Assembly: GCF_004762035.2 (NCBI RefSeq)
Contig: NZ_SIJK02000017.1
Coordinates: 1 to 50,058, forward strand
Direction: 5' to 3'
Source: Candidatus Chloroploca mongolica
Lineage (GTDB): Bacteria > Chloroflexota > Chloroflexia > Chloroflexales > Chloroflexaceae
DNA: 50,058 nucleotides
Position numbers and translations under genes: made by a program. The notes beneath the pieces are model-generated. The model worked only from the letters and a program-made list of their open reading frames with translations, was not told where the DNA came from and made no database searches. Shown here piece after piece: positions 4,488 to 23,268 of this stretch (within the stretch, counting starts at the first letter, position 1; each line of letters opens with the position of its first letter).

Positions 4488-4499
4488 TGAGCGGCGATG

Positions 4500-4635: not shown

Positions 4636-4671
4636 TCCATCAGGGAGTGCCGATGGACGATTGAATATTCA

Positions 4672-5840: not shown

Positions 5841-5908
5841 GCGGGCCTCCGAATGCATGAAGACCGGAATCAGGACAACTCCCTTGCCAAGAAGGTGGTT
5901 GTTTTGAC

Positions 5909-5985: not shown

Positions 5986-6054
5986 TTGCCACAGATTGGG
6001 ATCAGGGTCGCTGCCCAGATCCCAGTCCGTGGCACTGTTCTTTCTATGCGGGTG

Positions 6055-6740: not shown

Positions 6741-6799
6741 CTGGTCTCCTTTCTTCCTTCCTTGGTTGGCCGCACCTGCGGCGGCCAGTCGCGTGGTGG

Positions 6800-6868
6800 T
6801 GGCACGTGGCCGTCACCAGTTCATAAGGACAGTGCTGGCACGTGGCCGTCACCAGTTCATAAGGACAG
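6800..6868. repeat. 33-bp direct repeat, two copies
   Basis: Two identical copies of TGGCACGTGGCCGTCACC followed by AGTTCATAAGGACAG, at 6800-6832 and 6836-6868 (36-base period). They lie in the gap 5' of the 99-aa gene and just past the stop of the DUF6884-like gene. Could be paired regulator sites. Confidence 0.8.
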
Positions 6869-6890
6869 CGGTTTGCCCAGCGGCGTCGCC

Positions 6891-7460
6891 TCAGCGGGCT
6901 TCCGTCATCAGCCAGCGCTTGAGGGCGGTGAGTTGCCGACCGATCTCGGCCCCTTCGGGCGCGGTGGTCAGGGACGGCAGGCCGACGAGGGTGCGGGGGT
7001 CGCCGAGCGCCTCGCGGTAACGCTTGCCCGCACTGAGGTAGCTATCGGCATACGAGCACCGTGCGCACACCTGCGTGAGCGTGGTGCGCACCTGATCACG
7101 CAACGCACGGGCGCGTGAGGTGGTCATGCTCCGGTCATACGTGGGGATCGGCTGGATGGCTGGGATGAGGCCGAATTCAGCCGAAAGGACGTACACATCA
7201 AGGTGGAGCGCCCCCTCCGGGTGGTCGCTGAGCCAACGCCGCACGACGCGGACCGATGGCCCGTGATAGCGCTCGAGCGCGGGAAGCAGGCGCACATCGG
7301 GTCGTTGGGTCGCCGTGCAGGCGATGATCAGCAGCCGGCGCGGGAGCGCAACGGCGAGCGCGGTGCGGTGTGTGCTGCACGCCGCACCTGCCCCGTCCGT
7401 CCCGCTTGGGGCGGTCGGTTCGGCGCTGGACGGCGCCGTGGGCTGAGCAGAGGCATCCAT
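6891..7460 (-). CDS. DUF6884-like protein
   Basis: 189 aa starting MDASAQPT, chosen because AAAGGA stands 6 bases before it. The first ~45 residues are low-complexity. From about residue 45 the pattern LLIIACTATQ, LPALERYHGPSVRVVRRWL, VYVLSAEFGLIPA and IPTYDRSM fits the DUF6884/YaaA-like fold (Cys near a first strand, a YxG segment, then LSAxxGL and a PxYD motif). The family's reaction is not established to my knowledge. Two genes upstream is a transglycosylase-like protein, which makes a nucleic-acid base-modification role worth considering (inference). The 5' leader contains a long hairpin at 7490-7543. Confidence 0.6.
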   Translation of the reverse strand: MDASAQPTAPSSAEPTAPSGTDGAGAACSTHRTALAVALPRRLLIIACTATQRPDVRLLPALERYHGPSVRVVRRWLSDHPEGALHLDVYVLSAEFGLIPAIQPIPTYDRSMTTSRARALRDQVRTTLTQVCARCSYADSYLSAGKRYREALGDPRTLVGLPSLTTAPEGAEIGRQLTALKRWLMTEAR

Positions 7461-7489
7461 CGTCATTCCTTTGTTGATCAAACACGGTG

Positions 7490-7543
7490 GGCAACAAGGG
7501 GAAGGCAGTCTGGGTTGGTCGGTTCTGCCTGCCCTTTGTTGCC
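7490..7543 (-). promoter_or_regulatory. Long hairpin in the leader of the DUF6884-like gene
   Basis: GGCAACAAGGGGAAGGCAG (7490-7508) pairs with CTGCCTGCCCTTTGTTGCC (7525-7543) in 17 of 19 positions across a 16-base loop. It lies about 30 bases upstream of the gene start, without a T-run on the minus strand. An attenuator or RNA-processing structure is possible. Confidence 0.5.
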
Positions 7544-7556
7544 GGGCCAGGCGCGT

Positions 7557-7814
7557 TCAGGCGGGTGTGGGGTCGGCGGGGTTGGCAGGGTCGGCCGCGT
7601 CGGGCGTGGACGGCGGGGTCACGATGGCCGCACGAAGGCGCTGCACCATCGCGTCCCACTGGCAGGCGTACTGGCGAAGGGCCGCGCGCTGGATCATCGC
7701 CAGGTGCAGCGCGGTCTCTGCTGAGACACCGGTGGTCGCAATGATCTCGGCCATGAGGGCCTGCAGGTCGTCGCCACTCGGCGCGGGCGTGGGCGTGGTC
7801 GGTCGCGTGCTCAT
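7557..7814 (-). CDS. Small hypothetical protein, 85 aa
   Basis: Starts MSTRPTTPTPAPSGDD with AAGGAG 8 bases upstream. One predicted helical core (DDLQALMAEIIATTGVSAET, then HLAMIQRAALRQYACQWDAM) is flanked by Pro/Ala/Thr-rich tails. No family recognised. It lies just downstream of a terminator, so it is probably the first gene of the leftward PRTRC run. Confidence 0.55.
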   Translation of the reverse strand: MSTRPTTPTPAPSGDDLQALMAEIIATTGVSAETALHLAMIQRAALRQYACQWDAMVQRLRAAIVTPPSTPDAADPANPADPTPA

Positions 7815-7844
7815 AGGTCGTCTCCTTGTGGTTTTAGGCAACAC

Positions 7845-7875
7845 AAAAGACCGTGTGCGCGGCGTCAGCACACGG
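7845..7875 (-). terminator. Rho-independent terminator after the TGT-like gene
   Basis: Perfect 8-bp stem CCGTGTGC/GCACACGG with a 9-base loop. On the minus strand it is followed by TCTTTTGTGTT. It lies about 65 bases past the stop of the 337-aa gene and ahead of the 85-aa gene, separating the two units. Confidence 0.7.
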
Positions 7876-7939
7876 CCCTGCGCCACAGGGGCGCACGCCA
7901 TCAGGTCGAGTTAGGGGGTGGGTGACAAGACGCCTCCTT

Positions 7940-8953
7940 TCAGTGCTGGTCTGCAGACAGTGCCGCAACCGGAAACTCGGGCTGCTCCCAGTGCCCATCG
8001 GTGAGATTTGGCAGCGTGGTGATCGTGCGATCAGCGTGCAGCAGCGCCTCGTCAATGGGCTTCCAGGGCAGGCCGACCTGGGCGCGGTAGCGGATGAGGT
8101 GGTAGGCAAGGCGGGCTGATCTGGATCGCCTGAGGGCGGCAATCGAGATCCCGTATTCCGCCGTGTAGGCCGTGCCAATGCCGCGCGCAAAGCCAATCAT
8201 GGCCATCCTCGCCGGGCCAGAGCTATCGAAGCTCAGCACCAGCGGTGAGCGGCAGACCCACGAAGGCTTGCCGATCCCGAGCAGGTGGATGCGGCGTTGA
8301 AACGGGTCGAGCTCAGCGGCGGCTTCAAGATCGATAATCAACTGCGCGTACCACGCAGTTGCGGCACGCGCATAACGAGCGGGCACGAGGCCGCCAATCG
8401 CGCAGGCGGGCCGATCAACGAAGCCATCGGGCGCGTCGTGGAACCCCCACGCGGCGCGTTGGCATACCTGGGCACGTTCCTCGTCGTCGAAGCAGTCCTC
8501 GCGGTCGCGCACGAGGTCGCCGATGATCGCGGCAGCCCCAGGGCCGGGGTAATGGGTGACGGGCACGATCGGTGGATCGGGGCCGTGCCCCATCGTTTGG
8601 AGCAAGGCCGTGAGCCGCACGTCGTCGCGCTCACTGGCAAGCGGATTCCCCATCGTGTCGTAGCTGAGCGCCCAATCAAGGCAGGCGGGGGCAGGCACTG
8701 ATGGGCTGATAGGGGGCGACCTCCACCAGTTCGCGACGCGGTGGGCATAGTACGGCAGCGACAGGCGCGCCGTGTTCCCAGGAGGAAACGCGCCGGAGTC
8801 GAGGACGACATGTACCCCCGGCGTGCGGGCGAGCAGGCGTTCGGTTGACGAGCCAGCCGGCACGAGGTAGTGCCGTTGGCCGACATGCAGGGCGATCGCG
8901 AGATCGTAGGGGCGGGCACGAGCGCCCAGGGCGAAGTAAAACTGCGGTGGCAT
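7940..8953 (-). CDS. tRNA-guanine transglycosylase-like protein (DpdA-like)
   Basis: 337 aa with a strong AGGAGG site before MPPQFYFALGAR. Motifs in TGT order: HVVLDSGAF (about residue 48-56; TGT has DSGGF), PACLDWALSYDTMG (about 88-101), CAIGGLVPARYA (about 182; TGT has IGGL), RIHLLGIGKP (about 222) and VLSFDSSGPARMAM (about 240; TGT has FDxxxPTR). The canonical nucleophile position before FD is not an Asp here, and FDSS is more like the DpdA branch. DpdA inserts 7-deazaguanines into DNA, while TGT acts on tRNA. The cysteine zinc site of bacterial TGT is not visible. The fold assignment is fairly good; substrate is unknown. The gene is an independent unit, closed by a terminator. Confidence 0.6.
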   Translation of the reverse strand: MPPQFYFALGARARPYDLAIALHVGQRHYLVPAGSSTERLLARTPGVHVVLDSGAFPPGNTARLSLPYYAHRVANWWRSPPISPSVPAPACLDWALSYDTMGNPLASERDDVRLTALLQTMGHGPDPPIVPVTHYPGPGAAAIIGDLVRDREDCFDDEERAQVCQRAAWGFHDAPDGFVDRPACAIGGLVPARYARAATAWYAQLIIDLEAAAELDPFQRRIHLLGIGKPSWVCRSPLVLSFDSSGPARMAMIGFARGIGTAYTAEYGISIAALRRSRSARLAYHLIRYRAQVGLPWKPIDEALLHADRTITTLPNLTDGHWEQPEFPVAALSADQH

Positions 8954-8997: not shown

Positions 8998-9600
8998 GAA
9001 AGCTGAAAAGAGAAAGCGGAAAGCGGAAAGGCTCAACGATAGCAGTGACCGCACGGCTTTTTCAGTTTTCGACGTTCAGCGTTCAGCGTTCCCTGGGGCT
9101 GCTGAACCGGGCGACGAGAAGCGCGGGCGGCGGGCGCAAACGCGGCTGCGTGCAAACAACGCGGCGGTTGGCCGCCACGAGCAGGTGGTGGGCGCCAGCG
9201 GCGCATGAGGGGCCGGGGAGGAAAGCAGAAAGCAAAAAGATGAAAGCGGAAAGGGGCAGCGAACCCAATGATCGCTGGGCCGTTTTCAGCTTTCAGCGTT
9301 CCGATTTCCGCGTTCCCCGGCAGGCGGGGAGCCTCTCAGACAGTGGATTGAGGGGCTGCTGGAGGCGTCGCTTGGTGGAGTCACCCTAGCATCAGCGGCA
9401 TCGCGCTGCATCAGCAGTGATGACCGATCAGGTGTATGCGACCGGTTTACAAGCGGCCATGCGCTATGCTACAATCAAGCGCGCAGCGGCGTGTGAAACG
9501 GAAAACGAAAAGCGTCAAACGCAGGCAACGATGATGTGAAGGCGGTGCATATGCGATGAACCGCCGTTCTCCGTTTTGCGGTCTCCGTTTTACGTTCTGA
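8998..9600. repeat. Three imperfect inverted-repeat elements (AAAGCGGAAAG / CTTTCAGCGTTCC family)
   Basis: Three elements in tandem at about 8998-9092, 9221-9318 and 9494-9600. Each begins with a purine-rich arm (GAAAGCTGAAAAG, GAAAGCAGAAAGC, GAAACGGAAAACG). Each ends with a pyrimidine-rich arm (CAGTTTTCGACGTTCAGCG, TTTTCAGCTTTCAGCGTTCC, CTCCGTTTTACGTTC). A related pair of arms flanks the four-helix-bundle gene near 36 kb. I see no gene in 8954-9589. Confidence 0.65.
9446..9475 (+). promoter_or_regulatory. Sigma-70-like promoter candidate facing rightward
   Basis: TTTACA (9446-9451), an 18-base spacer, and TACAAT (9470-9475). It would transcribe the third inverted-repeat element and run antisense into the zinc-ribbon membrane gene. 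No gene on the plus strand follows, so the product, if any, would be non-coding. Confidence 0.35.
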
Positions 9601-10129
9601 ACAGCCGCCCAAACTGCTCGGGCACCACCGCCTCGGCCGACCCAGCGACAAAGGCGACGTGGCAGCGGTGGCAGTACCAGGACTGCTGCCAGCGGGCGAC
9701 CTGACGCTGCCAGCGCTCGTTGGCGGCACGGCGACGCTGCTCGTCTCGTTGGATGCAGCGCCCGGTGAGGCCAACGGCGATCAGCGCATCGACGCTGGCA
9801 ACGCCCGCGAAGAGGTGCTCGGCATAGGCGGGGCCCGCCAGCGCCGCCAGGGTCTGGCCCTGCAGGTTGACGATGAGCAGCGTGACGAGGCAACTCGCTG
9901 GGACACTGAAGAACAGCAAGCCAACAAGCACGACGATGATCCACCACCCGCCGCCAGGCTCGCGGGGCGGGGCGAGCAACTGCGCAAGGTGGGTTCGCGC
10001 AACGCCCGCTGCGGGCACAAGGTCAGCCGTGAGGACGCGGACATCGCGGGTGCCCCCAGTGACGATCGCAGCGACGCGCTGGGTCGCCTGGGGTGAACGG
10101 CAACACGGACAGATGGGCTGGCGAGACAT
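9590..10129 (-). CDS. Zinc-ribbon membrane protein
   Basis: 179 aa starting MSRQPICPCCRSPQ with GAGG before the ATG. An N-terminal CPCC knuckle (residues 7-10) and a C-terminal CHRC knuckle (about 153-156) could form one split zinc ribbon. Between them is a strongly hydrophobic segment (WWIIVVLVGLLFF and onward, about 62-90), then a weaker hydrophobic stretch (about 105-120) and an Arg/Gln-rich helix. Family unknown. A promoter-like region with an inverted repeat lies just upstream, so it is probably transcribed alone. Confidence 0.65.
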   Translation of the reverse strand: MSRQPICPCCRSPQATQRVAAIVTGGTRDVRVLTADLVPAAGVARTHLAQLLAPPREPGGGWWIIVVLVGLLFFSVPASCLVTLLIVNLQGQTLAALAGPAYAEHLFAGVASVDALIAVGLTGRCIQRDEQRRRAANERWQRQVARWQQSWYCHRCHVAFVAGSAEAVVPEQFGRLFRT

Positions 10130-10170
10130 ACGGTACCTCGTTCTGTTCTGATAGGCGGAAAAGCTACCGC

Positions 10171-10203
10171 TATCGTGTAGAACAATTGTACGATATGTGT
10201 CAA
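10171..10203 (-). promoter_or_regulatory. Promoter/operator candidate for the zinc-ribbon gene
   Basis: On the minus strand there is a perfect TTGACA (10198-10203) and a TACAAT (10185-10190), but their spacing is not a standard pair. An imperfect palindrome, TATCGTGTA to TACGATA, covers 10171-10195 and may be an operator. No firm -10 can be assigned. Confidence 0.35.
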
Positions 10204-10241
10204 GATCCCAATCAACGCTTCCCTGCGCGACGATCATTACC

Positions 10242-11603
10242 TCAACCCTGAGCAATCCGTAGTAGCCGACCCTGTGCTTCAAGCTGGCTCCAAATCGCCT
10301 GATGCGCCCGCCAACCCTCCCAGGCGGCATCGACGCTGCCGATGGGACGGGCACCGCAATCGTGGCGATGCTCGGCGAGGACGTCGCCCACGCCGTCCCG
10401 ACCAACAATCACACACCCGATCTGGTGGCGCGAGAGCATCACGCACCAGCGACCGGGCTCGAGGCCGAATGCATCGATCTGGCGCTGGCCGCTCAGGGTA
10501 TGCTTGACGACCATCAGCGGGCGCTCCTGGCCCTGCCATAGCTCTGGGGTCTCGACGACGCAGGCATCGGTCGGCACATTGTATAAGCGGAGCGAGCGGC
10601 GCACGGCCGCGCCAGAGGCCACATGCGCATCGATGGCACCGATATCGCCAGCTGACAGCTGGCGAACCCCTTCCCAGCGTGGTTGTCGCGCCAACAGGCG
10701 CGCTGCGATCGCTGCCATCGTCTCGGCAAGCTCGTCATCTACGTGCTCGAGCCCGAACTCGGCCGGTGGCAAAAGAACGCCAACCAGGGTCGCACCGTCA
10801 GCCAGCATATCAAGCGCCCGGTCGATGGTATCTCCTTGCGTTGCTGCATCCAGCTGCAGGCGTCGTTCTGCGGGTGCTGCTGCCGAGCTGAAGGGGAGCT
10901 GCCGGTAGAATGCCGGCTGCACGAGGTTGACGGTGTCCTGAGGCAAGCGGCGTGACGCCGGGAGACGCACCACGTCAAGCTGGGGAAAGCGCCGTAGCAG
11001 CTCGCGGGGTGCTGGCCAGTGGATTCGGTAGCGCGCCGTCTCAAAACGTTCGGTGTCGACGGTGATCAGCGGTGGCAACTGGCCCGGATCACCCACGAGC
11101 AGCGCGCTTGGCGCCAGCTCAAAGAGCGGGGCCAGGGTTGCGAAGGTAAGTTGGTAGGCCTCATCGCAGATGAGCAGATCAAAGCTTTGCGTGATTTTCG
11201 TCACCGCAAACAGGAGCTTGTCTGCAGTAGCGATCGTCACACCTGCTACGCCGGGAAGCGCCGTCGCGTCGTTGCACACCAGGATCCGCTGCGTTTGCAG
11301 CAGATCATCGGGTAGTTGGCGGTGTGCAGACATCAGCGCGGTGATCGGCATCGGGTCAAAGTTGACAACAAGCCGCCGCATCAGGTCGTAGGTCTGCTCG
11401 GCGCGCGGGGCCACCACCGCGACCCGCAGGCCCAGATGGTGCACGGCCACGGCAATCACCGATTCGACCAGGTAGGTCTTGCCGGCGCCGGGGGGCGAGG
11501 CGACGATCACGAGCGGCTCGCGCTCCTCGAGTGTCCGCCGTAGCACCTCGCGCTGCGCCGCGTCGCTGCGCCGCCGGGCGTCGAGATATGGTTGAGCGTT
11601 CAT
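10242..11603 (-). CDS. SF1 (Upf1/DNA2-like) helicase
   Basis: 453 aa. Motif I is IVASPPGAGKT (residues 33-43). Motif II is LLICDEAYQ (about 143-151). Motif III is LLVGDPGQLPPL (about 168-179). Motif V is VVETPELWQGQERPLMVV and motif VI is around MLSRHQIGCVIVG. The GDPGQLPP and WQGQE patterns place it in the Upf1-like SF1B branch rather than UvrD. It is short for this branch and lacks an evident 1B barrel. Its ATG overlaps the stop of the upstream gene by 4 bases, making it the third gene of a nuclease-unknown-helicase operon. It likely translocates on DNA for the nuclease encoded first (inference). Confidence 0.85.
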   Translation of the reverse strand: MNAQPYLDARRRSDAAQREVLRRTLEEREPLVIVASPPGAGKTYLVESVIAVAVHHLGLRVAVVAPRAEQTYDLMRRLVVNFDPMPITALMSAHRQLPDDLLQTQRILVCNDATALPGVAGVTIATADKLLFAVTKITQSFDLLICDEAYQLTFATLAPLFELAPSALLVGDPGQLPPLITVDTERFETARYRIHWPAPRELLRRFPQLDVVRLPASRRLPQDTVNLVQPAFYRQLPFSSAAAPAERRLQLDAATQGDTIDRALDMLADGATLVGVLLPPAEFGLEHVDDELAETMAAIAARLLARQPRWEGVRQLSAGDIGAIDAHVASGAAVRRSLRLYNVPTDACVVETPELWQGQERPLMVVKHTLSGQRQIDAFGLEPGRWCVMLSRHQIGCVIVGRDGVGDVLAEHRHDCGARPIGSVDAAWEGWRAHQAIWSQLEAQGRLLRIAQG

Positions 11604-13000
11604 CGGCGAAGCCTCCGTGCAATGGTAGCGAGATCATCATCGGCAGGTTGTGGTCGGGCAGGTGGCAGCGTATCGCCCATCACGCGTGTGTCGGCCGAGG
11701 CGGCCATGCGCTCGTACACCTGGCGTTTCTGGTACCGGAGATCCGCCGGCTCAGGCTCCATCCAGTCGGTGCGCTGGCCAGGAGCCGGCAGCTGGGGATT
11801 GCGCACCCCAGTGGTGATTACCAAGGTAAGCTGGACTGACTGACCTGCATTGAGCTCGCGTACCTCGGTGATCCGCCCGACCACCCGGGCTCCCCGCAGC
11901 TGCAGCTGCGTGCCGGCTCGGACTCTCAGCACCTGCTGGCAGGTCTCGAGGGTGAGGGTGCAGGGTTGGAAGCCTCGCCGCGGCTGATCACGATTGATGA
12001 TCGTCGCATCCAGCACCCGGCCAGCGCTCAACGCTGTGGCGCGAACAATCGGATCGTCGGCCACGTCGGCATACGCGGCGAGCTCCTGGGCATAGGTCAG
12101 CTCGTCAAGACGCTGGGCCAGGCTGCGCGGCCGCGCCGGGCTGCCGTAGTTGCGGTCGATCTGCCAAGCGACCCGTTTGAACGACTCAGCAGATAGCTTG
12201 GTGAGCTCCGGACCCTGTGTCAGCCCCAGAGTCCAGAAAGCTCGGCGTGCCTGCACCAGCAAGTTCCACTCGCGCAGTAGCTCTGCACGAATGATTGCCT
12301 CTGCCTCAACTCGGGCGGCTGGCTCACGCAGACGGCCGCTGGCGACACGTGCGCGCAGTTGCTCGACCCGATCATCGGCAGCCCGGGCCAGCATCGCGGC
12401 CGCAGGCGCAAGAGCTGCCTGCGCTGCCGCATCCACAACCGCCGTCCCAGCGGGCGGATCGATCCAGGCGAGCAAGGCGCCCAGGTGCAGATCTTCGCTC
12501 GGCGATTGGCCGGTAGCGACGTGCCCGGCGAGCAGGCTGCCCGCGACCGCAACGATCTGCTGCCCGGCAAAGGTGGTCTCCTCGGCCAGCAGCCGACACT
12601 GCGCCCCCATGCGCTGCAGCTCAGGCCCGACACTGCGGTTCGTGCGATAGCGGTGCCCCAGCAATTCGATGACTTCGAGTGCCGCCGTATGCGCCAGCCA
12701 GACCCGTGGCATCTCCCCGGCGGTCACGCAGTCGCTCAGGTAGCGGTCGAGCGCAGCCGCGAACGGCTCCAGAAAGCCGGCATCACGGTCGAGCGGGTTC
12801 CAGGTCAGCACGATTTCCGGCTTATCGTCGGGGCCGCCATAGGCCAGCGCGTAGACGACCTGTTCGGCTACCATGCGAATCGGTGCGATCGCGAAGGCCG
12901 GGATCGGATCGGCCATCAGGGCCGAGCTGCGCCTGGTCGGTATCGCCCGCCCGGCCTGGTAAGCCAGCAGGCGGGCGGCGAGGTCGAAGATGGTGCTCAT
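11600..13000 (-). CDS. Unknown protein between nuclease and SF1 helicase
   Basis: 466 aa, no family recognised. Residues 1-330 are mostly helical, with motifs such as VWLAHTAALEVIELLGHRYR and a long coiled-coil-like segment around 210-260. Residues about 340-405 are beta-rich (TLETCQQVLRVRAG, LQLRGARVVGRITEVREL, QSVQLTLVITTG) and could be a small barrel. The tail is Pro-rich. Both ends overlap neighbours by 4 bases, so it is made together with the nuclease and helicase. It may supply the barrel/accessory part missing from the short helicase, or act as a DNA-binding adaptor (inference). Confidence 0.65.
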   Translation of the reverse strand: MSTIFDLAARLLAYQAGRAIPTRRSSALMADPIPAFAIAPIRMVAEQVVYALAYGGPDDKPEIVLTWNPLDRDAGFLEPFAAALDRYLSDCVTAGEMPRVWLAHTAALEVIELLGHRYRTNRSVGPELQRMGAQCRLLAEETTFAGQQIVAVAGSLLAGHVATGQSPSEDLHLGALLAWIDPPAGTAVVDAAAQAALAPAAAMLARAADDRVEQLRARVASGRLREPAARVEAEAIIRAELLREWNLLVQARRAFWTLGLTQGPELTKLSAESFKRVAWQIDRNYGSPARPRSLAQRLDELTYAQELAAYADVADDPIVRATALSAGRVLDATIINRDQPRRGFQPCTLTLETCQQVLRVRAGTQLQLRGARVVGRITEVRELNAGQSVQLTLVITTGVRNPQLPAPGQRTDWMEPEPADLRYQKRQVYERMAASADTRVMGDTLPPARPQPADDDLATIARRLRR

Positions 13001-14076
13001 GCGGCCCTCCCCTGGACAACGGTTGACCAGTCGAAGAGTGCGGCCGCTTCACGGAGCGCCGGCCCCAGCCAGGCTTCGCGCTCGTCGGTCGCCGGAGCGC
13101 CGTGCAGCAACGCAAGGGCACGCGGGAGATCGATGGTCTCACCGAGCGTCTGGGCAGCACGGTCACCCAGGATGGTAGGCTGGGCAGCGGCGTGCTGCCG
13201 ACAGATCTGGGCGAGCAAACAGCCAGCGACGCAGGACTCCTGGTAGGTCGTTGCGAGCCGGGGTGCTACCAACGCTAGGGCTTCAGCGTCAGCGATTGCG
13301 GTCGCACCTAGGGCCTGCAGGCGGGTGCGCACCTGAGCCATCGTGTCTAGCACGCGGCGCATTTCAAACAGCTCGGCCGACAGTTGTTCGGCGAAGGCCG
13401 GATGCGGTCGCATGCCGAACGGTGACGCGAAGATGAATATCGCCGCTTCCGGAAGCCGATCGGCAATCCCGAGCGGGATCAACTCCTGCGCAAGGGCGAG
13501 CAGCTGGATCGCAGCCTGACGTCGTGCGCCGTCACGGTCACCCTGGGCCACGACGCCGTCGCGAACAATGAACGACTTGATTTCCACCGGCAGATAGACG
13601 TGTCGCTGGCGATCCAGGGCCAGGACGTCGGGGGCGATGAAGATGGCGCTTGCCAAGTTGCCGACAAGCGTAAGCTGTAGCTGCGGCTGGATCAGCAGAT
13701 CTGGCACGATCCTGTCGGCAGCCAGATCCATGAGGATGCGATCCGTGCGCCAGGCACGCTCTTCCATCGCCGCTGTACTCGATCCACGAACCTCCTCGGA
13801 CAGATCGCGCACGGTCAGGTCATCGGCCGCGACGCCAAGCAGCGGGGCAAGCGTCCCCCGGAGCACGGCCGCGCCATCTTGGTAGAGATTTTTCTCGAAC
13901 TGGGCACCGCGTCGGCGCGCTGAAACCCGCTCACCGTACTCGCCGGGATAGGCGGTACCCGCCAAGGCAAGGTAGACATCTTGCTCTCGCACACGTGTCA
14001 GCATCATTGCTGCCTGGAGCTCACAGGTTGGGTTATGTGCGACGCGGATGAGACCACGCGCTCCAGAAAGACTCAT
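12997..14076 (-). CDS. Cas4/AddB-like PD-(D/E)XK nuclease with probable Fe-S cluster
   Basis: 359 aa starting MSLSGARGLIRVAHNP; GGAGGT lies 5 bases upstream, ruling out the longer open frame. The RecB-type core is visible: IFIAPDVLALD (D150), then VYLPVEIKSF (E165, K167) and a following RRQAAIQLLALAQEL helix in the QxxxY motif position. Cysteines at 18, 292, 296 and 302 (one early, then CVAGC and a third) copy the Cas4/AddB arrangement that holds a 4Fe-4S cluster. Spacing is slightly wider than the usual CxxC. It leads a three-gene operon with an unknown protein and an SF1 helicase, divergent from the sigma/HTH/ImmA-UvrD operon. Probable DNA exonuclease. Confidence 0.72.
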   Translation of the reverse strand: MSLSGARGLIRVAHNPTCELQAAMMLTRVREQDVYLALAGTAYPGEYGERVSARRRGAQFEKNLYQDGAAVLRGTLAPLLGVAADDLTVRDLSEEVRGSSTAAMEERAWRTDRILMDLAADRIVPDLLIQPQLQLTLVGNLASAIFIAPDVLALDRQRHVYLPVEIKSFIVRDGVVAQGDRDGARRQAAIQLLALAQELIPLGIADRLPEAAIFIFASPFGMRPHPAFAEQLSAELFEMRRVLDTMAQVRTRLQALGATAIADAEALALVAPRLATTYQESCVAGCLLAQICRQHAAAQPTILGDRAAQTLGETIDLPRALALLHGAPATDEREAWLGPALREAAALFDWSTVVQGRAA

Positions 14077-14229
14077 GAACGACCTCCGATATCCAAGCCT
14101 TATGCACGCTTCGCAGGTACTGATGGGCCCGTTGTTCACCGATAAGGGAACGTTCGTCGCTCAATTTCATAGAACATTGATCCTCGAAGGTATCTTCAAG
14201 ACTCACTCCGCAAGTTGGTTACACTGCCG

Positions 14230-14238
14230 TGGTATAGT
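14230..14238 (+). promoter_or_regulatory. Extended -10 promoter candidate for the sigma factor operon
   Basis: TGGTATAGT (TG-N-TATAGT) sits about 66 bases upstream of the sigma gene ATG inside the 227-bp divergent spacer. No convincing -35 is present, as for many extended -10 promoters. Confidence 0.45.
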
Positions 14239-14303
14239 TGAAATGGCATTCATCATGCCAGAGTTGTTGACTGCGAATTGACGATGAGATGAGAGGTTCA
14301 TTG

Positions 14304-14957
14304 ATGAAGCTCCAGCATTCATGGTATGACGTAGTTGTCGCGTGTCAGGAGCGCGTTCAGCGCATCCGTGCCAGCTTGACCAGTGGTGGCACGCTCACGC
14401 TTGAGCTTCAGGCGGATCGGGAGGCCGTCATCCTGGCGATACGCAACTGGGTTCTTGGCCGGGCGAAGCACTTCCCTGAGCTTGATGAAGACGGAGTCAG
14501 CGAGGTATTGCTCAAGACCATCCAACAACTCGATCGCGATCTGCGCAGCCCCGGCTTTGGTAGTATGGAAAGCATGTTTGGCTCATATGTGAAGACTACT
14601 GTTCATCGGATTCTTTTTGAAATTCTTGGAAAAAACAAAGAACAGCGCGTCTTATCTGCACGTGAGCGCCTGGATGCGCAGGTCGGCAAGGGCGGCCTGG
14701 CCCGCCACGAGGTGATCGAAGATGTCACACCTGAGCGCCTTGCTGACGAGTACCGCGAAGAGCAGCTTCATGCGCGGCTGCACGCGGCGATTGCCCAATT
14801 GCCGCCGCACGATCGCGAAGTCATCAACCTGCGGTTGCAGGGCGTTCCGAGCATCGAGATTGCACGGCGTATGAACCTGTCGCCCGTCAACATTACCCGG
14901 ATCTACAATCGTGTCGTCGAGCGGCTGCGCCAGATCTTGACCGTTGAGGAGCATTGA
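14304..14957 (+). CDS. RNA polymerase sigma-70 family factor
   Basis: 217 aa. The ATG at 14304 (MKLQHSWYDVV) is preceded by GAGAGG; another ATG 15 bases upstream is possible. Region 2-like helices span about 30-115 (FPELDEDGVSEVLLKTIQQL, MESMFGSYVKTTVHRILFE). A clear region 4 helix-turn-helix is at about 155-210 (LPPHDREVINLRLQGVPSIE, then IARRMNLSPVNITRIYNRVV). The gene is first in a rightward operon with an HTH protein and an ImmA/UvrD fusion and faces the nuclease-helicase operon. It could direct expression of one or both (inference). Confidence 0.82.
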   Translation: MKLQHSWYDVVVACQERVQRIRASLTSGGTLTLELQADREAVILAIRNWVLGRAKHFPELDEDGVSEVLLKTIQQLDRDLRSPGFGSMESMFGSYVKTTVHRILFEILGKNKEQRVLSARERLDAQVGKGGLARHEVIEDVTPERLADEYREEQLHARLHAAIAQLPPHDREVINLRLQGVPSIEIARRMNLSPVNITRIYNRVVERLRQILTVEEH

Positions 14958-14959
14958 GC

Positions 14960-15568
14960 ATGGAAGAGCGATCGTATTTTATTGAAGCGGCGCTGCGCTA
15001 CGAGGCATTGATCGAAGCTGGCCAGATGCTTGGTCTTGATGCCTTCGTGATCCAGGAACCAGAGGCGACCCGTGCGGAGTTGCGGGCCTTCCTGGAGTTC
15101 AATCTGACCCATGGTGAGTTGGATGAACCAGCCGTGTTGACCGTTGATCAGGCGGCGCGTGCCGACCACGTGATTGCCCTGGTGCGCGGCGCTTGGCAGC
15201 ACGAGCTCAGTGGTACGCCCGTTCAGAACCTGACGCAATTGCGTCAGGCGCGTCAGCTGACCGTCGGACGGCTGGCCCGCCAACTTACCCTACCGGTGGA
15301 TCTGCTGGCACGCCTAGAACGGGGGAAAGTATTGGTAGCGAGTGTGCCCAACCGGCTGGTCGAGCAACTCGCCCAGATGCTGCACGCATCGACCAGCGCG
15401 ATCCAGGCGGCGCTGCTTGCGCCGCCGCCGACCACCGCCACAAGCCGCCTCAGTGCGGTTGATGGCATTGTCGAAGGCGAGGAACCGTTGGTCAGCTTTG
15501 CGCGAGCCTTCGCCGCGAGTGAGCCGACGGACGAAGAGCAGGCCGCCTGGGCTGCTGATCTGCCATGA
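14960..15568 (+). CDS. HTH protein (XRE-like), putative substrate/partner of the ImmA-UvrD fusion
   Basis: 202 aa starting MEERSYFIEAALRYEAL. The ATG follows the sigma stop by 2 bases, with GAGGAG just inside the sigma gene. Residues about 93-140 form an XRE-like helix-turn-helix (LTQLRQARQLTVGRLARQLT, LPVDLLARLERGKV). The N-terminal part is acidic and helical; the tail (EGEEPLVSFARAFAASEPTD) is acidic. In many phage and element systems an ImmA/IrrE protease cleaves a repressor of this kind encoded next to it. Here the next gene carries the protease domain and overlaps by 4 bases. It could instead be an anti-sigma or antitoxin-like protein. Confidence 0.65.
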   Translation: MEERSYFIEAALRYEALIEAGQMLGLDAFVIQEPEATRAELRAFLEFNLTHGELDEPAVLTVDQAARADHVIALVRGAWQHELSGTPVQNLTQLRQARQLTVGRLARQLTLPVDLLARLERGKVLVASVPNRLVEQLAQMLHASTSAIQAALLAPPPTTATSRLSAVDGIVEGEEPLVSFARAFAASEPTDEEQAAWAADLP

Positions 15569-18500
15569 GCGTGCGCTGGCAACAAATTCGTGCCGCTGCC
15601 CACACTGCCCGGCAGCAGTATCAGACCCACCACCAGGGTTCCGTCGTGCAACCGCTGGATCTCGCTGACCTGGCCGAATGCCTCTGGGGTCTTACAGTTG
15701 TGCGCACCGGAACGCTCGCCGAAGGCATTCAAGGCAAGGTCGAACCGGAACTCCAGGTCATCCGCGTGCGGCGCGAGCTTACGTCGGAACGGCAGCGCTT
15801 CGTCATCGCCCACGAGCTGGGCCACGTAGCCCTCGAAGGCCTGACCGCCGGTCCGTTCCTCGATACCGAGGCGACGATCGACGAGCGCTCGGCGGGTGAA
15901 AGCGCCGATGATACGGTGGTACGCACCTACAATACGCGTGAGCGGCACGAGCAGGAGGCCAACCTCTTTGCTTTGGAGTTGCTGGTACCGGCTGATGAAC
16001 TCTGGCGGGCGATCCAACAGCCGGGTTGGTCTGTCGAAACCCTCGCTGTATACTTCGGTGTCTCGCTGGACGCGATCCGAACCCAGATCGTCAATGTGAG
16101 TTGTCTTGAGCCACTCGCCCCACCGAATCTGACCAGTGACAGCGTAACGACCACGCTCACCCCTGATCCAGAGCAACAGGAAGCGGTAGATGCGCCTCTG
16201 CCACTGCTGCTTGCCGCTGGGCCAGGCACTGGCAAGACGCGGAGCATTGTCGCGAAGTATCTGGCCCTGGTACACCAAGGCGTCGATCCGGCAAGTATTC
16301 TGGCTCTGACCTTCTCGAATAAAGCTGCCGACGAGATGCGCGGGCGGATCGTCGCGGCGCTGCGCCAGGAATTCCCTGACCTCGCCGGGCGCGTTGCGAT
16401 CAGTACGTTCCACGCCTGGGGTCTGAATGTCCTGCGCACCTATGGCGCACGGCTGGGCTTGCCAATCAATGTCCGCCTGCTCGACACCGGTGACCTGTTT
16501 CTTTTGTTGACACGCCACCTGGCCGATCTGCACCTCGACCATTTCAAGGACATCCGTGACCCCTCTCGCCATCTGTTAGCGATCATCAAGGCGATCAGCC
16601 GGATCAAGGATGAGTTACGCACCCCTGAAGAGTATGCGCAACTTGCCGAAGCAGAAGCGCAGCATCTGGTTGTCCAGGCCGAGCAGAACCATGCGGGAAC
16701 CACGAAGAAAGCGGCGGAAGCTCGGCAAAGAGCAACTCGCCAAGCAGCCGCGCTCCGTGAGTTGGCGCACGTCTACCCCCGGTACGAGGCGGTCTTACGG
16801 CAGGCAGGTGCTCTCGATTATGGCGACCTGATTGTGCAGACAGTCGCTGCGCTACACGATCCGATTGTGGCTTCCGATCTACGCAAGCGCTACCAGTATC
16901 TGCTCATTGATGAGTTCCAGGATATTAACTACGCCTCAGGCGAACTGGTGCGCTTGCTCGATGGTGGTCGTGGACGGGTGTGGGCGGTTGGCGACGCATG
17001 GCAGAGTATCTACCGTTTCCGTGGTGCCTCGGCGGCCAACCTGGACGAGTTCACCACGCACTATCCAAGCGCCCATCTCTATCACCTTACCCACAACTAT
17101 CGCTCACTCCAGTCGATTCTTGACGCCAGTGCAGCGGTGATGGCCGGAGATACGCGATCGCCCCATCGTCCCAGGCTCGTAGCCCAGCGCGGTAGCGGGC
17201 ATGGCATACACGTTTGTGAATGGGTTGGACAGAGCACCCATGACGAGTATGCGGCGATCGCCCACGACATCTTGCAGCGGGTCGCCGCTCGGGTGTCCTC
17301 GGATCTCCCGTGTGTCCCGCATGGCCGCACTCACGGGAGCACCAAACCATATCGCCAACGACCGCAGCCCCGATGCCGTGCCATGCGAAAGATCCGTCAC
17401 TGGCGCTTTCGCGACCACGCCGTACTCTGTCGGAAACACGCCCATGCGATGCAGATCGCCACAATCCTCGAGGCGCATGGCATCCCGGTTGATAGTGTGC
17501 GCGACATTTATGAGACGCCTGAAATCAAGGACGTGCTGGCAATCTGTGCCCAGGTACGTGCGCTCAACAGCGCCGGTCTCCTCCGCGCCCTAACCATACC
17601 CGAATATCGGCTCGATCCTCGAGATCTCAATACCTTAGTGAACGAGGCACGTTGGTCGAAACAGGCGCTGCCGCGTGCGGCTCGCGACGCAGCGATCATC
17701 GCCCGGCTGAGCCCTCAGGCGCAGCAAGCGCTCACCCGGCTGCAGGCCATCATCGAGGCGCTGGCGGCTGAGGGTGATGCTTGGCAGGTCTTGGCGAGCT
17801 ACCTCTTTCAGCACAGCCAGCAGATGCGCGAGTGCCTGACCCGTGCCGGTCGCGGTGAGGGCGCGGCCAAGCGTGAACTGGCCAATCTTGGCCGGTTGCT
17901 GGCGACCGCCCAAAAATTTGTGCGCCAGGCCGAGCCTGGCCAACGGCACGCTGCCGACTTCATTGAGTATATCCGCACGCTGCGCGCCGCCGGTGCAAGC
18001 TCCAGCCAGCCTCTTGGCGGACAACCCGACGTGGTGCGGGTCATGACGGTGCATGCGGCCAAGGGGCTTGAGTTCCCGATCGTCTACGTGCCGCAGCTCC
18101 AGGAGGGCCAGTTCCCAGCGCGGGGCGGCCAGCGCGGCCTGCCGCAGCCGTCCGGCCTCATCCGCGGCCCAGTCGAGAGCGAACTGCAGGAGGAGCGCTA
18201 CCTACTCTATGTCGCGATGACCCGCGCTCGCGACCGCCTTGTTCTGACTCGCTCGACTGCTGGCCGGCGCACATCCAATGGCGAGCCAAAGGTGGCCGAG
18301 CGCTCCTCGTTGCTCGCCGGAGACGGCGCGCAGGCGAACACACCATGGGCCACACGCACCCTGCCAACAGCCCATGGCTGTCCGGTGCCAGCGCCAGAGA
18401 TGCGCTTGATGGACACACCACCACCACCGATGCCTTTGCCAGCATCGAGCATCAACCTTGATGGCTGTCGGCGCCGCTTTCTTTACCAGTACGTCTACCA

Positions 18501-19125
18501 ACTCTACGACGACCAGTCACCCTTCCTGCGTATGCACCAGGCCATTCGTGCGAGTGTGAAGCAACTGGTCGTGCAGGCACGTGACGGAACCCTGATGACT
18601 GATGAGCAGAGCATCCGCACGCTTGTCCATGGTCAGTTGCAGCGCTACGAACTTGACAACGTGCTCTACGCGGCTGACTACGCTGCCGAGGCCTGGCGGC
18701 ACGTGCGTGGCGTCTGGGACGATCTGTGTGCAGCCCGCCTGGTGCCGGAGCGAGTCGATCGTCGGGTTGTCGTGCACCGGCCAGCCGGGGCGATTGAGGT
18801 GCGGATTGATCGCGAGGAGACCCATGACGGATGCACCCGCTGGGTCTGGACGCGCTCAGGGCAGCCCGGCGAGGATGATCATCTGTCGGAGCGGGTGATG
18901 CTCTATGCCCTAGCCCACCAGGAGATCCACGGTACTCCCGGTGAGATTGCGATCACCTACACCGCAACCGGCGACCTGCGGCTAGCGACACCAAAAGACA
19001 AGGTGCTCGCCAACCACAGTGCCAAGATCGATAACCTGCTGGAGGAGATGCGAGCACGGCGCTGGGAGCCTTCTTTTGGGCCGCACTGCGCTACGTGCCC
19101 GTTCAATTTGATCTGCCCGGTGTGA
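15565..19125 (+). CDS. ImmA/IrrE protease - UvrD helicase - degenerate RecB-like nuclease fusion
   Basis: 1186 aa, three modules. (1) Residues 1-190: ImmA/IrrE metalloprotease with the zinc motif HELGH (83-87) and the downstream EANLFALELL (about 131-140) carrying the third ligand. (2) About 205-900: UvrD/Rep SF1A helicase. Motif I is AAGPGTGKT (217-225), Ia is ALTFSNKAADEM, II is LLIDEFQDI, III is VGDAWQSIYRFRGA, IV is LTHNYRS, V is VMTVHAAKGLEFPIVYVP and VI is LYVAMTRARDRLVL. (3) About 955-1186: RecB/AddB-type nuclease fold. It has a lone Cys (INLDGCRRRFLYQYVYQL) and a terminal HCATCPFNLICPV, which together could hold an Fe-S cluster. At the expected catalytic D-x-K the sequence is RWVWTRSG, so nuclease activity is probably lost. 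The gene overlaps the HTH gene by 4 bases. Confidence 0.88.
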   Translation: MSVRWQQIRAAAHTARQQYQTHHQGSVVQPLDLADLAECLWGLTVVRTGTLAEGIQGKVEPELQVIRVRRELTSERQRFVIAHELGHVALEGLTAGPFLDTEATIDERSAGESADDTVVRTYNTRERHEQEANLFALELLVPADELWRAIQQPGWSVETLAVYFGVSLDAIRTQIVNVSCLEPLAPPNLTSDSVTTTLTPDPEQQEAVDAPLPLLLAAGPGTGKTRSIVAKYLALVHQGVDPASILALTFSNKAADEMRGRIVAALRQEFPDLAGRVAISTFHAWGLNVLRTYGARLGLPINVRLLDTGDLFLLLTRHLADLHLDHFKDIRDPSRHLLAIIKAISRIKDELRTPEEYAQLAEAEAQHLVVQAEQNHAGTTKKAAEARQRATRQAAALRELAHVYPRYEAVLRQAGALDYGDLIVQTVAALHDPIVASDLRKRYQYLLIDEFQDINYASGELVRLLDGGRGRVWAVGDAWQSIYRFRGASAANLDEFTTHYPSAHLYHLTHNYRSLQSILDASAAVMAGDTRSPHRPRLVAQRGSGHGIHVCEWVGQSTHDEYAAIAHDILQRVAARVSSDLPCVPHGRTHGSTKPYRQRPQPRCRAMRKIRHWRFRDHAVLCRKHAHAMQIATILEAHGIPVDSVRDIYETPEIKDVLAICAQVRALNSAGLLRALTIPEYRLDPRDLNTLVNEARWSKQALPRAARDAAIIARLSPQAQQALTRLQAIIEALAAEGDAWQVLASYLFQHSQQMRECLTRAGRGEGAAKRELANLGRLLATAQKFVRQAEPGQRHAADFIEYIRTLRAAGASSSQPLGGQPDVVRVMTVHAAKGLEFPIVYVPQLQEGQFPARGGQRGLPQPSGLIRGPVESELQEERYLLYVAMTRARDRLVLTRSTAGRRTSNGEPKVAERSSLLAGDGAQANTPWATRTLPTAHGCPVPAPEMRLMDTPPPPMPLPASSINLDGCRRRFLYQYVYQLYDDQSPFLRMHQAIRASVKQLVVQARDGTLMTDEQSIRTLVHGQLQRYELDNVLYAADYAAEAWRHVRGVWDDLCAARLVPERVDRRVVVHRPAGAIEVRIDREETHDGCTRWVWTRSGQPGEDDHLSERVMLYALAHQEIHGTPGEIAITYTATGDLRLATPKDKVLANHSAKIDNLLEEMRARRWEPSFGPHCATCPFNLICPV

Positions 19126-19189
19126 AAGAGTGATCCGTATGGTGTCTTATCCGAAGAGGAGCAGGTGTAATGCAGAAGGCGTTCACACA

Positions 19190-19219: not shown

Positions 19220-19387
19220 GGTTGACGCCTGCATAATCTTTTGCAGCATCTCCGACAGCTATGCATACGTGAACTGTAATCGTTCTGGTACAAGCTCTTG
19301 GATTGATATACGACCTGAACATTGATTTCGGCGGGTCAGGTGCAGCGACAGATTCTAGAGTTGCCCTGCGTAGTTGAGGTAATCTGT

Positions 19388-21064
19388 ATGCCACCCGGAC
19401 GTAAACGGACAACCAATCAGAGTGCGGCGATCACCAATGGCCCGATCATGGCGTCCACGGGTGAAGAGACCAATGGTCGGCACGATCTGTCGCTCCTGGA
19501 AAACCGCCTTTGGGAGGCTGCCGATCAACTGCGCGCCAACTCGAAGTTGAAGTCGTCGGAGTATTCCATCCCAGTGTTGGGCCTGATCTTTCTGCGGTAC
19601 GCCGACTACCGCTTCACCCATATCGAGCAAGAGCTGAAGGTGAAGCAAGGCGCATCGTCACGCCGTACCATCGGCAAGGCCGACTACCAGGCGCGTGGTG
19701 TCATGTACGTGCCCGAGGAGGCGCGTTTCGCAAGGCTGTTAACGCTGCCCGAGGGCGCCGATATCGCCAAGGTGATCAGCGAGGCGATGAAGGCGATCGA
19801 GGCCGACAACCCGGCCCTGAAGGATGTGCTGCCCAAGGAGTATCGCCGACTCGGCAACGACGTGCTGGTTCCGTTGTTGAAGACCCTCAACGCGATCCCG
19901 ATGGATGCCGAGGGTGACACCTTTGGCCGGATCTACGAGTACTTTCTGGGTGAGTTTGCCCGCAGCGAGGGCCAGAAGGGTGGTGAGTTCTATACACCTA
20001 CCGCGCTGGTCAAACTGATCGTTGAGGTGATCGAGCCGTTCCACGGCCGGATCTTCGACCCGGCCTGCGGATCCGGCGGCATGTTCGTGCAGAGCGCCCG
20101 CTTTGTCGAGAACCACAAACGTAACCCGAATGCCGAGATCAGTATCTACGGCCAGGAGAAAGTTGGTGAAACTGCCCGGCTCTGCCGCATGAATCTGGCT
20201 GTCCATGGTCTCGGTGGCGAGATCCGCGATGGCAATAGCTACTACGAAGATCTCCATCGCAGTGTTGGGCAGTTCGACTTTGTTATGGCCAATCCGCCAT
20301 TCAACGTCAACGGCGTCGACAAGTCGCGCCTCAAGGACGACCCACGCTTTCCCTTTGGTATGCCGACGCCGGATAACGCCAACTATCTCTGGATCCAGCA
20401 CTTCTATAGTGCCCTGACGCCAACTGGACGCACTGGATTTGTCATGTCCAGCTCGGCCGCCGATGCACGCGGCTCCGAGCAAGAGATCCGCCGTAAGCTG
20501 ATTGAGGCCCAGGCAGTTGATGTGATGATCGCAATTGGGCCGAACTTCTTCTACACGGTGACTCTGCCCTGTATGCTCTGGTTTTTCGACCGCAACAAGG
20601 CGCGGACGGCGCGCAAGGATACGGTGCTGTTCATCGATGCGCGCCAGATCTACCGCCAGATCGACCGTGCCCACCGCGACTTTACGCCGACCCAGGTTGA
20701 GTTTCTTGCCAACATCGCGCGGCTCTACCGTGACGAGCAGCCCGAGCAGGTTTCCGGCAGCGAGAACCTGCTGGCCCAGCACTTTCCTGACGGTGCCTAC
20801 CAGGATATCGCCGGGCTCTGCAAGGTGGCGACGCTCGATGAGATCAAGGCCCAGGGCTGGAGCCTCAATCCGGGGCGCTATGTCGGCGTCGCCGCCCGCG
20901 CCGCCGACAACTTTGACTTTGCTGTGCAGCTCGAGGAGCTGAACGAAGAACTGGAGCAACTGAATGCCGAAGCGCGTCTCCTGGAAGAGCGCATCGCCGA
21001 GCATGTAGAACAGTTGTTGGTACCAGCGACAGTGGGGCAAGCGAAAGTGCCGCGTAGGGACTGA
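19388..21064 (+). CDS. hsdM: Type I restriction-modification methyltransferase subunit M
   Basis: 558 aa starting [12 protein letters not shown], with GAGGT 7 bases upstream. Residues about 35-190 are the HsdM N-terminal helical domain ([30 protein letters not shown]). The SAM-binding motif [10 protein letters not shown] is at about 223-232 and the catalytic motif [10 protein letters not shown] at about 299-308, typical of adenine-N6 methylation. [16 protein letters not shown] precedes motif I, as in the family. The last residues ([14 protein letters not shown]) differ from the tail encoded by the remnant at 21733-21913, which looks like the original end. It partners with HsdS at 21910. Confidence 0.95.
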
Positions 21065-21081
21065 GGAGGAAGGAGACAGGG

Positions 21082-21369
21082 ATGAATCTCGATCAACTGC
21101 GCTCTAGGCGCGCCGAAATCCTGACACTGGCCGAGCAGCATGGCGCACATAATGTACGCGTCTTCGGCTCAGTCGTGCGAGGTGAGTCAGGAAGTGAGAG
21201 CGATATTGATCTGCTGATCGATATGGACGAGCAACGCAGCCTCCTTGACCTGGTGGCGCTCTGGCAGGATCTCCAGGACATGCTCGGTCGACGCGTTGAT
21301 GTGGTCACTGAACGTAGTCTCCACTGGTATATTCGTGACCGGGTGTTGCGTGAAGCGAGGCCGTTATGA
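21082..21369 (+). CDS. mntA: MntA-like nucleotidyltransferase antitoxin
   Basis: 95 aa. The minimal nucleotidyltransferase motif is complete: VFGSVVRGESGSESDIDLLI (GS, then DxD) at about 29-48 and a third acidic strand RVDVVTE near residue 73. In characterised MntA-HepT pairs this enzyme AMPylates a tyrosine next to the HEPN toxin's active site and so neutralises it. AGGAGG/AAGGAGA precedes the ATG. The stop overlaps the HEPN gene start by 4 bases. The pair sits between hsdM and hsdS. Confidence 0.9.
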   Translation: MNLDQLRSRRAEILTLAEQHGAHNVRVFGSVVRGESGSESDIDLLIDMDEQRSLLDLVALWQDLQDMLGRRVDVVTERSLHWYIRDRVLREARPL

Positions 21370-21707
21370 AAGATGACGGTCTGTACCTTACCCATATGCT
21401 CGAATGTATCACGCAGATCGAAGAATACACGCGGAATGGCAAAGAAGCCTTTATGGCTTCACGGATGACCCAGGACGCGGTTGTTCGTAATTTTGAGATT
21501 ATTGGCGAGGCGACGAAACGGGTATCTCCGTCGCTGAAAGATGCACACCCTCATGTACCGTGGCGGCGTATCGCCGGGTTGCGTGATGTGCTGATTCATG
21601 ATTATATTCGTGTCGAGCTTGAACAGGTCTGGGCGCTTGTTATCGGCCCAATGCGCGACTTGAAACGTGATCTTACGACGATTCGTGCGATTCTGGAAGG
21701 AGCGTAA
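21366..21707 (+). CDS. hepT: HepT-like HEPN ribonuclease toxin
   Basis: 113 aa, DUF86 family. The HEPN active-site motif RDVLIHDY (R-X4-H-X-Y) is intact at about residues 76-83. The tyrosine is the position AMPylated by MntA in known systems. Upstream is the typical MTQDAVVRNFEIIGEATKRV segment. HepT cuts RNA when released from its partner. It overlaps mntA by 4 bases. Confidence 0.9.
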   Translation: MKDDGLYLTHMLECITQIEEYTRNGKEAFMASRMTQDAVVRNFEIIGEATKRVSPSLKDAHPHVPWRRIAGLRDVLIHDYIRVELEQVWALVIGPMRDLKRDLTTIRAILEGA

Positions 21708-21732
21708 CAGGGTATACGTCACCCGAGCTACG

Positions 21733-21913
21733 CTGAACCTTGATGGCTGGCTATGCTGTCGGCGGCACCGCCCGCGCCGCCGGGAAGTTCAACTTCACCG
21801 TGCGACTTGCAGAGCTAAATGAGGATCTGGAGCAACTGAATGCCGAAGCGCATCTCTTGGAAGAGCGCATCGCTGAGCATGTGGAACGGTTGTTGGAGCA
21901 GGTGACAAAATGA
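21733..21913 (+). pseudogene. Remnant of an hsdM 3' end
   Basis: This segment repeats the end of hsdM (about 20870-21020). It encodes GTARAAGKFNFTVRLAELNE and [20 protein letters not shown] in the hsdM-like frame, then EQVTK and a TGA that overlaps the hsdS ATG as ATGA. By eye about four fifths of the bases match the tail of the present hsdM. The upstream part is missing and there is no start. It marks the insertion point of the mntA-hepT pair, or the tail of a related M gene brought in with it. Confidence 0.8.
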
Positions 21914-23199: not shown

Positions 23200-23268
23200 A
23201 CCACGCGGATTTCACACCGCGTATATTCCAGCGAAACGGGCTGATGCCATTGAGAGGGACACAGAGAT

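Follow-up and report, generated by a model that had tools for sequence, protein, structure and literature searches.

Do six adjacent genes in Candidatus Chloroploca mongolica encode a single DNA-processing machine? The genes lie at positions 10242-19125 of contig NZ_SIJK02000017.1, the first 50,058 nucleotides of which were analysed (hereafter the window). The leftward operon encodes a nuclease, a 466-residue protein and a helicase (here NUC, MID and HEL), and the rightward operon a sigma factor (SIG), a helix-turn-helix protein (HTH) and a large fusion protein (FUS). A sequence-only reading of this DNA had placed the genes in two divergent operons with tight overlaps and proposed that they form one helicase-nuclease system. 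Its layout agrees with ours: we found the six open reading frames (ORFs) at those places, with 4-base overlaps at all four within-operon junctions (HEL/MID, MID/NUC, SIG/HTH and HTH/FUS). The six genes are nevertheless two separable modules and not one system. NUC-MID-HEL is a genuine and widespread trio that appears not to have been described, probably a variant of the DNA2/Bad helicase-nucleases made of three subunits. The earlier reading knew of no named system with these genes, and no description of the gene set was found in the openly accessible literature collection searched.

HEL resembles DNA2 and MID may supply its missing barrel

HEL (10242-11603, minus strand; 453 amino acids) matches the superfamily 1 helicase families AAA_30/AAA_11 in Pfam. 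Its best profile match in the Protein Data Bank is DNA2 (E 8e-14), with HEL profile positions 13-388 aligned to DNA2 632-1013 over the whole core, followed by SMUBP-2 and UPF1. We thus assign HEL, from its sequence, to the DNA2-like superfamily 1B (SF1B) helicases, and the earlier label 'Upf1-like' is correct and can be sharpened. HEL appears to hold domains 1A and 2A only, with Walker A at residue 39. According to passages of PMC4716839, DNA2 shares an N-terminal stalk and β-barrel with Upf1, IGHMBP2 and Senataxin. Across 25 HEL sequences only 5-42 residues precede Walker A (some starts are estimated), which leaves no room for these elements. HEL was also considered as a component of Mokosh, a candidate we rejected: only short helicase stretches of the MkoC/MkoA profiles were matched, with no full-length match.

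NUC (12997-14076, minus strand) carries the motifs of a Fe-S PD-(D/E)XK nuclease of the RecB/Cas4 type, motif names being drawn from general knowledge and from passages of PMC7430649. In an alignment of 29 sequences, Asp-171 and Cys-303, Cys-307 and Cys-313 are invariant, Glu-186-x-Lys-188 is present in 27, Gln-208 in at least 90% and the motif-I glutamate in most only. The N-terminal cysteine is kept in all sequences with an untruncated start, so that the predicted four-Cys Fe-S pattern spans the nuclease domain. Neither NUC nor MID has a Pfam family at E<=1, a match in PADLOC or PHROGs, or anything near the cut-off in NCBIfam.

MID (11600-13000, minus strand; 466 amino acids) is predicted to consist of a DEDD/RNase H-like N-terminal fold, a helical stretch and a C-terminal β-barrel like the SF1B 1B domain. 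In Foldseek, Sen1/SETX entries are the top three matches of the barrel (residues 328-417; E 3.5e-3 to 7.8e-3), and with VIA-align, Sen1, SETX and IGHMBP2 take seven of the top nine rows, the best being Sen1 (Z 10.9, root-mean-square deviation 2.1, 84 residues aligned). The C-terminal barrel of MID therefore appears to supply the SF1B 1B-type part that HEL lacks. The N-terminal 327 residues, modelled separately with AlphaFold2 (AF2) at a predicted local distance difference test score (pLDDT) of 73.7, weakly resemble DEDD exonucleases (3'hExo: Z 8.8, root-mean-square deviation 3.5, 154 residues aligned). The D-x-E acids are absent from the first strand in all 32 MID sequences viewed, and thus no catalysis is expected from this domain.

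The closest barrel folds, Sen1 and SETX, are RNA helicases, as might be expected if MID-HEL were an Upf1/Sen1-like machine that acts on RNA rather than DNA and has gained a nuclease. This is very improbable given that the best profile match of HEL is DNA2, that NUC is of a DNA nuclease type and that the neighbours of the trio, described below, are DNA-acting systems.

We instead consider it probable that a helicase-nuclease of the DNA2/Bad type has here been split into three subunits, NUC, MID and HEL. The trio is encoded in what would be domain order, with the Fe-S nuclease first, then MID, with its predicted degenerate exonuclease-like domain, stalk and 1B barrel, and then the RecA-like helicase core. 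All three are separate ORFs in the window and in relative loci, and not a single polypeptide as in DNA2/Bad. MID would supply what the SF1B motor lacks and keep NUC beside it. The motor may move 5'-3' on single-stranded DNA from an end while NUC cuts the strand, and broken DNA would be resected or destroyed. Gene order, motifs, distribution and neighbourhoods can be read directly from the genomes; the two domains of MID are predicted from modelled folds, and complex formation, strand polarity, end processing and regulation we infer.

Several points weigh against the divided-enzyme assignment. The AF2 model of whole MID has a pLDDT of 65.7 (weak to moderate). Foldseek gave no match of the barrel at E 0.001 or better, and the lead of the SF1B barrels in VIA-align is modest, as unrelated barrels reach Z 9.2. 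For the RNase H-like half, the Foldseek E is only 0.048, and a Z of ~8.8 is near values reachable by models without a true match. By sequence, MID matched neither solved structures nor a TM0106-family protein, and hhalign against four Upf1-like proteins found no 1B barrel in it. An apparent MID-HEL fusion in locus L031 proved to be an artefact, a run of N next to letters that resemble adapter. Finally, NUC does not appear to be live in every locus. Its E-x-K motif is lost in L021 and L048, and in L006 (Ca. Viridilinea; NUC at 9421-10004) an internal deletion of ~500 bp has removed the catalytic motifs. The L006 frames of MID, HEL, SIG, HTH and FUS are open, with MID, HEL and FUS under purifying selection, and the deletion may represent decay, an assembly error or a dispensable nuclease.

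The trio is kept together and is a core gene set in Streptomyces

We collected MID relatives from genome_contigs and built profiles of the trio from the best 80 of 82 loci, in which genes were called as crude ORFs. MID was found in all 80, HEL in 79 and NUC in 75, the order NUC-MID-HEL being kept on one strand; every miss, five for NUC and one for HEL, falls at a contig end. In actinobacterial plasmids, from Rhodococcus, Xylanimonas, Euzebya and Mycolicibacterium, a shorter relative of MID (hhalign probability 97% for the pair) lies beside a HEL relative, with no NUC adjoining. The NUC-MID-HEL split is therefore likely to be old. A VWA-like gene stands in front of the pair in three of these four plasmids. 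The operon of VWA-like gene, small protein, MID relative and HEL relative, again with no NUC, occupies 3505-8140 in L144, 1994-7134 in L145 and 2022-7128 in L148, and is preceded by an AAA ATPase gene in L145 and L148. In the Euzebya locus L146, the MID-HEL pair lies behind a cytosine methyltransferase gene.

Of 121 Streptomyces genomes, 115 have MID (counting the seed; the genus label of this sample rests on its centre genome G418, the genome of L016). It is thus near-universal in the sampled Streptomyces, where the trio is a core gene set. More than one copy occurs in 10 of the 121 genomes, not counting G434, where the gene is in two pieces. Elsewhere, MID was found in 11 of 246 Actinomycetota (seed included), seven of which were already in the Streptomyces sample, in 4 of 400 Chloroflexota and, among 349 Pseudomonadota, in the seed alone. 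Three of 72,556 plasmid records carry MID, one of them chromosome-sized, and a search of 50,697 phage records with the L048 MID as query found none.

This distribution raises a housekeeping explanation, in which the task of the core copy in Streptomyces would be to resect double-strand breaks or telomeric ends, and the proximity of other copies to defence genes would only reflect accessory islands and chromosome ends. The presence of MID in so many Streptomyces fits this view, as does a control in which PADLOC matched none of the 10 ORFs around one core copy. Some second copies are found close to ends, at 6.8 and 21 kb from those of chromosome contigs and, on a linear plasmid, at ~13 kb (G473:C1:21468-22946 and 10654192-10655670, G517:C1:6766-8241, and L141), those of G473 at matching distances from both ends. 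On the other side, 6 of the 121 Streptomyces genomes have no MID match, MID is rare outside Streptomyces, and accessory copies adjoin many different defence systems. We regard general repair as a plausible account of the trio, if somewhat short of an even prospect.

Accessory copies lie near many defence systems

Away from the Streptomyces core site, 25 loci have, ahead of the trio, a gene for a protein of ~260-280 amino acids, which we term FAM17. Where FAM17 was scanned, Pfam, PHROGs and PADLOC gave nothing convincing for it, and in the window, in L005-L007 and in 14 core loci the best match to it has an E of 1.1. In 11 of the 25 loci, an SbcC/SbcD (Mre11-Rad50-like) operon is divergent from the trio, although L134 has SbcD only and both genes are in pieces in L140.

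We examined the neighbours of 20 FAM17 loci (L008, L012, L033, L136 and L142 were covered by a comparison for Jet and Sbc genes only) and found a defence gene within ~4.5 kb in 14 of them. Wadjet type I lies near L058, L133, L140 and L141, and Wadjet type II near L134 and L135. Type III restriction-modification (RM) genes are found near L048 and L139, a type IV gene near L131 and a type IIG/I-like restriction helicase near L137. The remaining four adjoin a type I-E CRISPR system (L047), Hma (L009), an MkoC-like protein (L021) and a DinG of the pPIWI-RE type (L138). Of the other six loci, L014 and L132 gave no defence match on the single protein sent to PADLOC. By Pfam alone, no clear defence gene was seen beside L010 (a CHAT protein), L011 (a glycosyltransferase), L042 (two proteins without a family) or L130 (a UvrD-like gene and one without a family).

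These neighbourhoods suggest, by association, a defence function for the trio, and its role may be DNA-end processing tied to defence. Three points count against giving them full weight. The 11 SbcCD-linked MIDs form one group in the tree (support 67/93), with long branches between its members, and the linkage may therefore have arisen once. The 14 defence-adjoining loci represent about eight MID tree groups, and the proteins for the PADLOC neighbour scans were picked by hand.

The facing operon is a separable module

SIG (14304-14957, plus strand) is a sigma-70-family factor with a Pfam match to sigma-70 region 4, and HTH (14954-15568, plus strand; TTG start) is an XRE-type protein that matches HTH_31. 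FUS (15565-19125, plus strand; 1186 amino acids) combines an ImmA/IrrE protease, a UvrD superfamily 1A helicase and a RecB-like nuclease part, with Pfam matches to Peptidase_M78, UvrD and PDDEXK_1. In the window its motifs are HELGH at residue 83 (HExxH), GPGTGKT at 219 (Walker A) and DEFQD at 449. The nuclease part of FUS had been called dead, and the comparison bears this out: none of 10 sequences, the window included, has an intact D-x-K (L117 keeps the lysine), and all 10 retain the four cysteines. Judged by these residues, the nuclease part has lost catalysis and kept the cysteines of a Fe-S-type fold.

ImmA/IrrE proteases cleave XRE-type repressors, and HTH is therefore a likely target of FUS. 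By this analogy, HTH probably serves the ImmA domain as a partner or is its substrate. In FUS, an ImmA protease would be attached to a UvrD motor whose Fe-S nuclease fold is dead; the protease probably cleaves or disarms HTH and so would release SIG-driven expression. Two other assignments did not hold. As Gabija, FUS matches GajB through its UvrD part, and no GajA was among the matches listed for the six proteins (for FUS, the best 25 of 63). The UvrD gene of L048, which clustered with FUS, has no ImmA part before the helicase as judged by eye from its translation.

Does this operon belong with the trio? The earlier reading asked whether the six genes co-occur and stay adjacent across genomes, and would have taken two operons lying apart in most genomes as its refutation; apart is how we found them. 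Among the 80 MID loci, SIG and HTH stand beside the trio in three, all Chloroflexaceae (L005-L007), and 77 have no match to either. Conversely, six further Chloroflexota loci have SIG-HTH-FUS together and lack NUC and MID. The six-gene set as a general unit was thus rejected, both operons being mostly found apart. HTH relatives match at E 0.001 in 56 of 400 Chloroflexota genomes. Close HTH (E<1e-29) is present in 10 of them, namely the four with MID, five that belong to a single genus of a different family, and G150. We fetched 10 HTH loci, including four with weaker matches (L118-L121) that have HTH alone, with neither SIG nor FUS.

In four of the five same-genus loci (L112, L114, L115 and L116), a full-length Upf1-like helicase gene is divergent from SIG-HTH-FUS, and in L112 a small DUF4258-like ORF (named by eye) lies between them. 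This gene, present in four of the six loci, was rejected as a HEL orthologue, as it is full-length with Walker A at residue 219 or beyond. The genes directly upstream of SIG-HTH-FUS in L117 (G150), at 1795-8047, form a set resembling type I CRISPR-Cas, as recognised by eye.

The two modules are nonetheless paired in one lineage. All four MID-bearing Chloroflexota genomes have close HTH, and full-length FUS at 85-100% identity is found in the same four of 41 family genomes; a genome of the same genus, G260, has neither MID nor HTH. SIG-HTH-FUS stands beside the trio only in these four Chloroflexaceae genomes, and as they are a single lineage the pairing counts as about one event. It is real and confined to that lineage. 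A dedicated six-protein machine, in which SIG and HTH regulate and the trio joins FUS in an AddAB-like complex of two motors, one nuclease being live and the other structural, would account for this pairing, for the six genes lying in one block beyond which the FUS-side flank differs, and for a second motor facing the trio much as SbcCD faces it in Streptomyces. We nevertheless think this unlikely given the separate occurrences of both operons, the single lineage and a NUC that is broken in one of the four joint genomes. A crude 9-mer comparison of nine upstream regions, together with searches for inverted repeats and for promoters, also revealed no convincing regulatory motif shared by the two operons in the intergenic region. 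What survives of the one-machine proposal is an unnamed Fe-S nuclease/SF1 helicase machine, the defence-island setting and a second motor with a dead nuclease; the six genes as one system do not.

Conserved block and flanking genes

The two operons lie in a conserved block (9999-19162, no strand) that is 98% identical in G222. Its right boundary, at ~19158-19166, is common to G222, G370 and G375, and the window sequence stops matching them past this point. On the left, the G222 comparison ends at a contig end (the 9999 side) and that with G370 near one, and G375 shares stretches back to ~7078. Ratios of nonsynonymous to synonymous substitution rates of 0.10-0.28 place all six genes under purifying selection in the comparison with L007, and five genes (NUC left out) in that with L006. 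The NUC ORF is open to 14139 (380 amino acids), and its start is probably at ~14076, because similarity to L007 begins only at ORF base 64. The SIG ORF is open from 14289; its start is probably at 14304, the point from which the DNA resembles that of G375 and G370.

Beyond the block, the window holds a type I RM system (19322-27719, plus strand) adjoining the FUS side, in which a nucleotidyltransferase-like and a HEPN-like gene (named by eye) lie at 21082-21707 between hsdM and hsdS. A dense defence island follows at 29786-47706, with a GmrSD-like type IV gene, a SNF2 helicase gene, a BrxHII/DrmD-like helicase gene and a DrmMI-like gene.

Discussion

We propose that a divided DNA2/Bad-type enzyme has been put to use in more than one setting. 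As a core gene set in Streptomyces, the trio probably has a repair role. The accessory trio, which carries FAM17, may act alongside defence systems that cut DNA, frequently together with a divergent SbcCD, and in the Chloroflexaceae island the partner slot would be filled by the independent SIG-HTH-FUS module. Taken further, and only tentatively, the trio with its partners could be a bacterial counterpart of the Mre11-Rad50 and Dna2 resection pair that works as a mobile immune module. Here, SbcCD would open or trim ends made by Wadjet or restriction enzymes, NUC-MID-HEL tuned by FAM17 would destroy the cut invader, and a damage-sensing ImmA-UvrD motor would replace SbcCD in Chloroflexaceae.

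NUC and MID are without a model in four protein-family libraries, yet MID is so common in Streptomyces and accessory copies recur beside defence genes. If our assignment is correct, a DNA2-type motor on three polypeptides makes each domain, the 1B barrel included, separately testable. It would also provide a bacterial setting for how Mre11-Rad50-like and DNA2-like enzymes divide work at DNA ends, and a candidate answer to the fate of invader DNA once Wadjet or a restriction enzyme has cut it.

How does the trio compare with known systems? Wadjet (JetABCD) and SbcCD are neighbours of accessory copies and differ in that no Jet or Sbc gene was matched at the Chloroflexaceae loci L005-L007. Bad, known from Geobacillus and, as a second class, from Mycobacteria/Rhodococcus, is described in passages of PMC7430649 as a four-Cys Fe-S RecB-family nuclease followed by an SF1B helicase, with a central domain of unexplained fold. 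It differs in being one monomeric chain where we find three genes, and is likened here by its description. Eukaryotic DNA2, the nearest solved relative of HEL, likewise has the order nuclease, stalk and barrel, helicase. It is a single chain with an OB domain N-terminal to the nuclease, and the passages of PMC4716839 consulted describe no exonuclease-like domain between nuclease and helicase.

A protein of the TM0106 family (TIGR03491) has PDDEXK, RNase_H_2 and AAA_11/12 in a single chain, in the domain order proposed for the trio. HEL matches it by profile, whereas NUC, like MID, has no sequence match to the TM0106 protein. The TIGR03491 model matched none of NUC, MID and HEL at E<=1, and RNase_H_2 had no match in the genome of the window. 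In the Rhizobium locus L149 (1329-6524), a TM0106-family helicase-nuclease gene is followed by multiubiquitin, ThiF-family and DUF6527 genes.

FUS resembles AddAB, RecBCD and AdnAB in having a UvrD-like motor with a Fe-S RecB-like domain, and differs in that it has lost the catalytic pair of the nuclease and carries ImmA. Its scores fall below the equivalog cut-offs of AddA (TIGR02785; 146.7 of 707.65 bits) and RecB (TIGR00609; 140.2 of 696.05). AddAB/RecBCD, which the earlier reading had named as the known parallel, fits less well than DNA2, because HEL is of the SF1B type and the NUC-MID-HEL order is that of DNA2-like fusions.

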